A program made the position numbers and the translations under genes. A stretch of 20,077 nt of DNA from a virus, in the IMG/VR virus record IMGVR_UViG_3300001097_000102, positions 1-20,077 of that record; one strand, given 5' to 3'. Below, one piece after another: positions 10,724 to 13,313 of this stretch (positions are counted from its first letter, which is position 1; each line of letters opens with the position of its first letter). The notes under the pieces are model-generated. The model worked only from the letters and a program-made list of their open reading frames with translations, searched no databases and had not been told where the DNA came from.

Positions 10724-11773
10724 CTAGGTTGTTCCAGCTTGGCCAGAGGTTATCAATGCAATCGTTCCGAAATCCTGGCTATTAAACACAGTTTTCTTCC
10801 CGCCCCAAATCATACCTGCAGCTACACCTAGCTGATTGCCGTAGTCGAACAATTCCTCTACCCAACTTACTTTATTTCCAGCAGAGTCTTGACCAAACGC
10901 TAGTACTGCAGCTTGCGCGCCTGCAAATACGCCGCGATAAGCCCCAGCTACAACGCTCGGGACCCTTGTGGACTCATGGATAATAACGTTGTTGTACATT
11001 CCAAGGGCGCCCGTAAAAATGGGGTTCTTAGTGATTTCCCCACCAGTTAAGGCAGCTTTCTGGATGTCAAACCATTGTCCAGCGTTAGCGTTAGTACGCA
11101 ATGCTGTTACTTGGTAAGGGTGCAAGAAAAGCACATAGTAGTCTTCGCCCATCATGCGAATTGGTCTAATGCATGGAGAGTTCAATTTAGCTTTTTCTAA
11201 TACGAAATCGATAAATTGGATCTTCATAACGTTAGATGCAGTTGCAGATGCAACCGCAGTTTCGTCCGCTACACCGTTAGCGTAGTAAACGTTATTGCTA
11301 GATGGTGCTGTTGGCGTGTTGTTACAAGCAACTCGTGTATCGGCGCCTGAAACCCCTGCTAACTGGTTGAAGAAACCAAGGTCAAATGCTTGTGCATACC
11401 AGTCAGATAATCCGATCTGAGCTTGTTCTCGTACAGAGAATGGCACGCGTTGTTCAGACATTTTACCGCCTGAGCGAACAGCATTACGAAGTTGGTTGAT
11501 ATAAAGGTTATCGGTATATACCTGCAACGCTTCTTCATTACCTTCTAGTGTGGAGTCGCCTTGCACACCAAGAGCAGTTAACTGCATGCGTAATGGCACT
11601 GTGATTCTATCGCCTGGACCTTTTTGGGTGTCGTCTAGCAATTGAATCATCGAGTTATCGTCATTGCCGATGAATTTGTACATCCAAGTTTGTTTTAGAG
11701 CTTCTTGGAAAAGCTTACGCGACCAAAGTTTGACCGCGACTGGGCTGTTAACGCCCCATTCACTGACCGCCAT
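10724..11773 (-). CDS. Major coat protein, N4 gp56-type, 349 aa
   Basis: Family-typical segments are clear: AVKLWSRKLFQEALKQTW at about 12-29, GPGDRITVPLRMQL at 52-65, QLRNAVRSGGKMSEQRVPFSVREQAQ at about 94-119 (the hallmark of this coat family), DYYVLFLHPYQVTALRTN at about 206-223, and a C-terminal DYGNQLGVAAGMIWGGKK stretch. The fold is expected to be HK97-like, forming the icosahedral shell. Length agrees with the family. ATG at 11773 is preceded by AAAGGA, which lies in a small perfect hairpin. The gene is separated from the scaffold gene by a 541-base regulatory gap with a terminator and a promoter, so coat can be made at a different level from the upstream genes. P22 itself has an unrelated-looking coat sequence, so this is a mosaic head. 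Confidence 0.88.
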   Translation of the reverse strand: MAVSEWGVNSPVAVKLWSRKLFQEALKQTWMYKFIGNDDNSMIQLLDDTQKGPGDRITVPLRMQLTALGVQGDSTLEGNEEALQVYTDNLYINQLRNAVRSGGKMSEQRVPFSVREQAQIGLSDWYAQAFDLGFFNQLAGVSGADTRVACNNTPTAPSSNNVYYANGVADETAVASATASNVMKIQFIDFVLEKAKLNSPCIRPIRMMGEDYYVLFLHPYQVTALRTNANAGQWFDIQKAALTGGEITKNPIFTGALGMYNNVIIHESTRVPSVVAGAYRGVFAGAQAAVLAFGQDSAGNKVSWVEELFDYGNQLGVAAGMIWGGKKTVFNSQDFGTIALITSGQAGTT

Positions 11774-11829: not shown

Positions 11830-11926
11830 AACATCCCTAGTTTCTGTTTTTAGCGCCCAGTCGGCGGATTACTTACCATAGCTTGTAAGGCAGCAGTGCT
11901 TTTAGCGAGCACCCAACGGTATTTTT

Positions 11927-11954
11927 AGTATAGCTGGTGACTTAGGACTTGCAA
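11927..11954 (-). promoter_or_regulatory. Sigma70-like promoter for coat gene
   Basis: Minus strand TTGCAA, 16 bases, TATACT: four of six matches to the -35 and five of six to the -10 consensus. It would start a transcript with a leader of about 145 bases before the coat ATG. It lies downstream of the terminator after the scaffold gene, so it makes functional sense as the source of extra coat mRNA. Confidence 0.55.
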
Positions 11955-12039
11955 GGATGCTATATTTTACATGCGCATCAACGGGGTCGTTCCTGTAGCG
12001 TCATTTGGCTGGCTGGCTGACGTGGCACCTTCCGGCAAT

Positions 12040-12088
12040 GATGCAGCCTGAATCGGTTACCTGGGTTCAATTCCCAGCACCTCCACCA
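12040..12088 (+). ncRNA. tmRNA/tRNA 3'-end-like sequence without a 5' half
   Basis: The plus strand reads CTGGG-TTCAATT-CCCAG (a perfect T-arm, 12061-12077), then CACCTCC, A and CCA (12078-12088), exactly the order of a T-arm, 3' acceptor strand, discriminator and CCA end. CUCC-A-CCA gives U70, as in alanine-accepting tmRNA and tRNA-Ala. Upstream, GATGCAG, GAAT and CGG occur in the order I remember from the last part of E. coli tmRNA. A matching 5' acceptor strand (GGGGGTG or GGAGGTG) and the tmRNA TTCGAC motif are absent nearby, and no tRNA anticodon arm fits. It is therefore a partial copy: an attachment-site core, a remnant, or an orphan tRNA-like element. Confidence 0.5.
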
Positions 12089-12191
12089 AAGTTTATGGGG
12101 AGTCACGCAGACGTGCGTTTAAAGCATTTATAACGTAGATGGACGCCCCGCCATTTTAATTGGTTACCATAATCAAAAAAGCATACGCCCA

Positions 12192-12210
12192 AATGACATC
12201 TGTGGATGTT
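12192..12210. repeat. 19-bp dyad repeat, copy 1 (operator-like)
   Basis: AATGACATCTGTGGATGTT contains ACATC and GATGT as inverted arms around a 4-base centre. A second copy 27 bp away differs by one base. It is a typical layout for a dimeric regulator, located between the scaffold terminator and the coat promoter. Confidence 0.55.
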
Positions 12211-12218
12211 GGCACGGT

Positions 12219-12237
12219 AATGACATCTATGGATGTT
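12219..12237. repeat. 19-bp dyad repeat, copy 2 (operator-like)
   Basis: AATGACATCTATGGATGTT is identical to copy 1 except at one central position, keeping the ACATC/GATGT arms. It starts 27 bp after copy 1, between two and three helical turns. It directly abuts the T-tract of the terminator. A lone half-like TAACATCC occurs at 11829-11836 in the coat leader. Confidence 0.55.
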
Positions 12238-12275
12238 AAAAAAGACAGCCGCCACGCCGGAAGGGAATGGCGGCT
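12238..12275 (-). terminator. Rho-independent terminator after scaffold gene
   Basis: On the minus strand AGCCGCCA pairs with TGGCGGCT (8 bp perfect, 13-base loop), followed by GTC and six Ts. It lies 40 bases past the scaffold stop at 12315. It should reduce read-through from the packaging genes into coat, which explains the separate coat promoter. Without its own U-tract it would be weak on the plus strand. Confidence 0.75.
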
Positions 12276-12314: not shown

Positions 12315-13313
12315 TTAACGTTGGCCCTTAGCCTTATTTTTATAACCAGCCCAAAATTCATCGAACTGGGCAAAATCCATACCATCAATTGCATCAACGC
12401 CTGGCGTTGAGCTTGGCAGTTCACCGCCACCACTTTTTAGCGACTTAGAGTTAGCCATGCCGCGCTTGATGTCACTAAGGCTCCTGGGTGCCACTGGCGT
12501 CTTTTTAGCGTTGGCAGCTGAGTAGCCGCGATTTTTTGCAACGTTATAAATACGCTCTGCTGGGTTAACCTTGTCGTGGTATGCTTTGGCCACAATGCTC
12601 ATTTCTTCCTCTACCAATAAAGACTGGGCCTCTTGGTCTGAGTAGCCTGCCGCTTTATGCTCGGCCATGCGCGCGCCTAGCAAAAACTTATAAGCCTCTG
12701 AAAACTCAGGCGTCTTAGCTGAGAACTCTTGTGCCGATGCCCGGTAAGTGTTCATAAAGGCTTGTTGCTGGGTATTGCGTTGCTGCATATCATGCTGCTG
12801 GCGTAAATAGTTGTTGTGCTCTTCCAGGGACCTCTCAAGCTTATTAATTTTGTATTGCTGGTACGCGAGCGGATCTTCGTCTTGATCAGGCACAACCTCT
12901 TTGGGCTCTTGCGATTGTGCGGGCTTTGTCATGGAGTCCTTAAGCTGGGCTAGGATTTGCTCCATTTCAAAAGCTTTGCGATTGGTAAGGTCTAACTCCT
13001 CTTTGAGCTCTTTGCGCTTGGCAAGCTCTACCTTGAACGCTTTTTCGTAATCGCGCTGTCCTTTGGAGGCTGGCTCATCTTCATCAGCTGAGCTGTCAAC
13101 GTCTGCATCGGTCTCGTTTTCGGCGTACACATCATCGCGTCCAGAATTATCTGATCCCACTTCATCTGATGATAAATCGCTAGCGGATGAATCGTCCCCA
13201 GCATCGCTTAGGCTCTCCTCAATTTTAGTTTCTTCTGCTTCAGCGCCTTTGCTTTTAAAGTAGGCATCTTCGTCTGCACTTAAATAATCATCTAATGGTC
13301 CTGCTGTTGTCAT
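12315..13313 (-). CDS. Scaffold-like assembly protein, 332 aa
   Basis: ATG at 13313 has an SD (AAGGA) eight bases upstream and overlaps the portal gene by 26 bases. Residues 1-80 are extremely acidic (Asp/Glu/Ser-rich). Residues about 85-200 are long charged helices likely to be coiled coil (AKRKELKEELDLTNRKAFEM, KLERSLEEHNNYLRQQ). The C-terminus, from about 255, is basic with KNKAKGQR at the end. An acidic, coiled-coil, highly charged protein encoded between portal and coat is the classic arrangement for a scaffold that directs procapsid assembly. In P22 the basic C-terminal helix-turn-helix contacts coat, and the basic C-terminus here could do the same. No protease motif is seen. The function is inferred from features and position. 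Confidence 0.75.
   Translation of the reverse strand: MTTAGPLDDYLSADEDAYFKSKGAEAEETKIEESLSDAGDDSSASDLSSDEVGSDNSGRDDVYAENETDADVDSSADEDEPASKGQRDYEKAFKVELAKRKELKEELDLTNRKAFEMEQILAQLKDSMTKPAQSQEPKEVVPDQDEDPLAYQQYKINKLERSLEEHNNYLRQQHDMQQRNTQQQAFMNTYRASAQEFSAKTPEFSEAYKFLLGARMAEHKAAGYSDQEAQSLLVEEEMSIVAKAYHDKVNPAERIYNVAKNRGYSAANAKKTPVAPRSLSDIKRGMANSKSLKSGGGELPSSTPGVDAIDGMDFAQFDEFWAGYKNKAKGQR

Follow-up and report, generated by a model that had tools for sequence, protein, structure and literature searches.

A tmRNA 3′-end segment between the scaffold and coat genes of a podovirus-like phage, possibly the relic of an ssrA-type attachment core

The tmRNA, encoded by the ssrA gene, is the RNA that rescues stuck ribosomes. 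In one IMG/VR contig (record IMGVR_UViG_3300001097_000102, positions 1 to 20,077; this whole stretch of 20,077 nucleotides is termed the window), a sequence resembling the 3′ end of such an RNA lies on the non-coding strand between the presumed scaffold gene and the coat gene (Table 1). The first-pass annotation had placed it at 12040-12088 and had read it either as the core of a phage attachment site or as an orphan tRNA-like RNA. The question is what the end of a tmRNA represents where the rest of its gene is missing. The explanation favoured here, to which about an even chance is given, is a relic of an ssrA-type att core or a tmRNA fragment that was captured by the phage and has no working partner.

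Table 1. Features in and around the scaffold-coat gap (window coordinates)
Feature	Position	Strand	Remarks
Major coat protein gene	10724-11773	−	PHROG 334
Coat-leader hairpin GGTGCT-CGCTAAA-AGCACT	11895-11913	−	Covaries with GCAACT-CGCTAAA-AGTTGT of L005
Coat gene promoter TTGCAA-16-TATACT	11927-11954	−	Conserved in L005
Strain-variable stretch upstream of T-arm	12000-12060	+
T-arm CTGGG-TTCAATT-CCCAG, perfect, tmRNA-type	12061-12077	+	From sequence; same in L084/L090 and in the permuted tmRNA of L083
3′ acceptor strand CACCTCC with U70	12078-12084	+	From sequence
Discriminator A (A73)	12085	+	From sequence
CCA	12086-12088	+	From sequence
Downstream flank	12089-12191	+	GGGG shortly after CCA, like the start of a permuted-tmRNA coding piece; without GGGGGTG and TTCGAC
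Direct repeat copy 1, AATGACATCTGTGGATGTT	12192-12210	+	From sequence
Direct repeat copy 2, AATGACATCTATGGATGTT	12219-12237	+	From sequence
Presumed scaffold ORF, lying between portal and coat	12315-13313	−	No family match

The T-arm, the 3′ acceptor strand with U70, the discriminator A and the CCA, all described earlier, are indeed found on the plus strand, at 12061-12088, and the acceptor strand is of the tmRNA/tRNA-Ala type. These elements belong to the tmRNA family, as does a GGGGGTG 5′ acceptor strand with a TTCGAC D-loop, which is absent from both the window and the closed phage genome. The missing 5′ half is thus borne out, at the locus and elsewhere in the closed genome. The further similarity to ssrA upstream does not hold, however. 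Identity ends at the T-stem, which is preceded by GGTTAC in the window and by GGAC in phage tmRNAs; the tmRNA match does not continue in 12040-12060 and nothing farther upstream aligns. The real segment is therefore 12061-12088 and not 12040-12088.

In a covariance-model scan of the genome, RF00023 scores 24.2 bits on the segment (E 5.6e-10), and the alignment is in substance a match at the 3′ end alone. This score and the 19.5 bits obtained with RF04321 are both under the curated cut-off of 47 bits, in the case of RF00023 because the match is confined to the 3′ end. ARAGORN finds no tRNA cloverleaf with an anticodon arm at the segment. The stem that marks a tRNA-like-domain-only tmRNA of the DS6A type, which closes within ∼65-105 nt and carries G3.U70, is likewise not found there. 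Among candidates that were rejected, a tRNA gene (with or without an intron) or a full tmRNA gave nothing sensible with ARAGORN under several settings. A tmRNA in two parts, the second encoded at a distant site of the same genome, was dropped for want of a TTCGAC adjoining GGGGGTG, and a compact permuted tmRNA, running from the plus-strand promoter to a hairpin near 12250, has a fitting size but no coding-piece signature.

A T-arm followed by 8 nt and CCA appears in 0 of 150 random windows from a second-order Markov model of the window sequence, which excludes that the likeness to the end of a tmRNA arose by chance. A scan of IMG/VR with the looser motif GGGTTCRATTCCCNNCACCTCCACCA yields at least 119 stretches. 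Among the matches listed, 70 of 119 loci are ARAGORN tmRNAs, mostly permuted, and many of the remaining listed loci are short tmRNAs with the tRNA-like domain alone. Nearly always, the motif marks the 3′ end of a tmRNA and not that of a tRNA. Outside its own phage, the exact 28-mer is present in L083, a 65.8-kb phage contig, where it forms the acceptor end of a permuted tmRNA that has a proper coding piece (GGGGGTGTAACGGTTTCGACGGGG). Together, the motif distribution and the shared 28-mer show that the segment is, by its sequence, a genuine tmRNA 3′ end, and in this respect the first-pass annotation was right. The L083 tmRNA (554-1090) is also distinguished by a long predicted tag (ANSIVSKVTRIWERIVEAISPAGYSPAFA).

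Three more contigs belong to the same virus at ≥99.9% (L003/L091, L004/L088+L089 and L084/L090). By way of overlaps the four contigs close into a circle of ∼34.85 kb (17,506 + 17,579 minus overlaps of 154 and 79). The phage is podovirus-like and encodes a terminase, portal, coat, ejection-like protein and tail fibres, and in addition ERF and YqaJ recombination proteins, sigma factors, a Lon-like protease domain and a ParB-like protein. Neither a tyrosine recombinase (PF00589) nor a serine recombinase/resolvase (PF00239) is matched in any of the four contigs, and Pfam and PHROGs reveal no recombinase among the larger open reading frames of the closed genome. A recombinase may be too divergent for these collections, or it may be supplied by the host or by another phage. 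As a separate observation, a sigma-70-type sigma factor (L088:3550-4077, +), a second sigma region-4 protein (L088:5726-6247, −) and a stand-alone Lon C-terminal protease domain (window 17270-18100, −) are carried here by a small phage in which an integrase is undetected.

The scaffold-coat gap is 541 bp in this phage vs mostly 130-160 bp in relatives. Across 46 contigs of the phage and its relatives, RF00023 detects neither a tmRNA nor a tmRNA end at the coat gene, and the sole match in this set is weak, sub-threshold and away from the coat gene. The segment at the coat gene is limited to one phage species. Within the species at least two versions of the gap coexist. The L084 version is longer by a net 113 nt directly upstream of the T-arm. 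A 21-nt piece of it recurs in reverse complement in the window at 12016-12036 (GGCTGACGTGGCACCTTCCGG); L003, from the same sample as L084, backs the junction of the window. Comparison of 12000-12060 with L090:17246-17440 (−) displays a net 113-nt deletion and a 21-nt inversion, adjoining a TGGC repeat run. Such a combination of deletion and inversion is typical of template switching. The 28 bases are intact in both versions, but as these are 99.95% alike overall, the intact bases cannot show selection.

Several known systems bear comparison with this locus. The segment resembles ssrA as used for integration by prophages and islands in that identity is confined to the end from T-arm to CCA; it differs from these systems in its position inside a late operon and in having neither a detected recombinase nor a host match. 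Fragments of ssrA have been reported in prophage genomes, and phage tmRNAs are known as well, including two-piece ones; that of OM43 phage Melnitz is permuted (PMC9004378). Permuted phage tmRNAs (Melnitz, Pelagibacter phage HTVC008M and L083, the last with all 28 bases in common) resemble the segment in the type of their T-arm and 3′ acceptor strand, but the segment has no coding piece, acceptor stem or tag frame. A tmRNA consisting of the tRNA-like domain only is found in mycobacteriophage DS6A, and a molecule similar to it strongly inhibits tmRNA (PMC4131195; PMC11915505). Like the segment, the DS6A RNA is a phage tmRNA end without the messenger part, but DS6A-type tmRNAs retain the 5′ acceptor strand and the segment does not.

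With identity running from T-stem to CCA, the segment has the form of an ssrA-type attachment core, and as a description of form the earlier proposal of an att core is fair. That it is a working attP, recombining with the 3′ end of a host ssrA gene through a recombinase that acts in trans or is too divergent to be recognized, is unlikely. The extent of identity is right for such a core, the two 19-bp direct repeats at 12192-12237 are candidate arm sites, possible ones if the locus was once an att site, and other contigs of the phage stop at the variable spot, 40 to 150 bp from the core. These contig ends are, however, accounted for by the two strain versions, and no integrated form is needed. 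Integration would also part scaffold from coat and split the late genes. In a phage, the integrase gene is usually adjacent to attP; no recombinase is found in the closed genome, and in the coat relative L007 the integrase is ∼19 kb from the coat gene, with no T-arm within 2 kb. In other viral contigs, a crude, unvalidated motif search detects no integrase with an orphan T-arm nearby. The exact 28-mer is in 0 of 84,980 species genomes, and a scan allowing ≤2 mismatches, run without a positive control for near matches, finds none in 614 genomes, of which 385 come from the class to which Bradyrhizobium belongs and 229 from that of a Thiotrichaceae MAG. Coat relatives are found in several alphaproteobacterial genomes, among others. 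Scans with each flank detect no viral contig that joins one flank alone, and no attL/attR junction among viral contigs.

It is somewhat unlikely that a phage-borne tmRNA gene, compact permuted or with the tRNA-like domain only, decayed in place to the T-arm and 3′ end. L120, L180 and L199 carry compact permuted tmRNAs with GGGGGTG within a few nt after CCA, and the window has GGGG ∼9 nt after CCA, within the span of the RF04321 alignment. Against this, there is no GGAC, TTCGAC or recognizable tag frame, identity ends exactly at the T-stem, and the acceptor stem is missing from the folding ensemble, where the downstream GGGG-CUCC pairing has a probability of 0.01. It is quite improbable that the plus strand yields a working RNA with a tRNA-like CCA end, for example one that would act as a processing signal or would decoy SmpB or alanyl-tRNA synthetase. 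The T-arm is very stable (pair probability 0.93-1.0), and a GAGGUG ∼170 nt upstream in L084 is able to pair with CACCUC, but this partner is missing from the window version, which offers no 5′ strand for G3.U70 and no D-loop. Folding z-scores of −1.1 and −0.7 are no better than those of shuffles, and the strain versions differ by the deletion and inversion directly upstream. The plus-strand promoter proposed to drive such an RNA does exist as a promoter-like site (11937-11966), but at chance level, with 1.2 expected in the stretch, and it overlaps the conserved coat promoter on the opposite strand. The tRNA-like RNA reading is thus unsupported, and it is very doubtful that an orphan acceptor/T-arm RNA, antisense to the coat operon and without its 5′ half, acts as a decoy of tmRNA partners or a processing signal. 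A tRNA-like fold of the long L084 version was also rejected, with a single 6-bp pairing and z −1.1. It is highly improbable that the longer version contains a small coding frame to which the tmRNA match is incidental: in L084 one frame runs open over 52 codons and, past a single amber stop, over 37 more through the motif, but no homologue is found in phages, plasmids or PHROGs, and the result with random windows excludes a chance likeness.

With the captured relic, the source of the segment would be a temperate element or a tmRNA gene, from which site-specific or illegitimate recombination brought it in; it would have lost any function, staying as a neutral scar in a gap that tolerates rearrangement. 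It adds another tmRNA-end fragment to those of phages, and it cautions that a T-arm with CCA is not always an attP or a tRNA.

Phage tmRNAs with the tRNA-like domain only, of 67-103 nt, are present in IMG/VR at L119, L125, L127, L130, L134, L147 and L148. Further examples are L151, L154, L156, L158, L159, L166, L173, L179, L185, L187, L203, L207 and L212, and another is L235:1150-1230 of Streptomyces phage pSt2308. Their layout consists of GGGGGTG, usually a TTCGAC-like D-loop, a closed P2 hairpin, GGAC, the T-arm and CACCTCCACCA, and a tag frame is absent. With RF00023 several reach 57-74 bits, and ARAGORN overlooks most of them. Such RNAs look common in environmental phages, whereas the literature cited here names a single one, that of DS6A, and the class is a candidate inhibitor of ribosome rescue. 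An unannotated tRNA-like stretch of ∼114 nt in the N4-like Ruegeria phage DSS3phi2 (L233:1115-1228) displays GGGGATG ... T-arm ... CATCTCC ACCA with G3.U70, and has no ARAGORN or Rfam call.

The 5′ leaders of the coat gene in 64 non-redundant relatives display tandem short hairpins with a CGYNA loop and freely covarying stems. The copy in the window matches no Rfam family. CGYNA motifs occupy a loop closed by a stem of ≥5 pairs in 38% of cases, vs 7-13% for control motifs and 9% for shuffled flanks, and these hairpins are possibly a binding array for the coat protein or a regulator.
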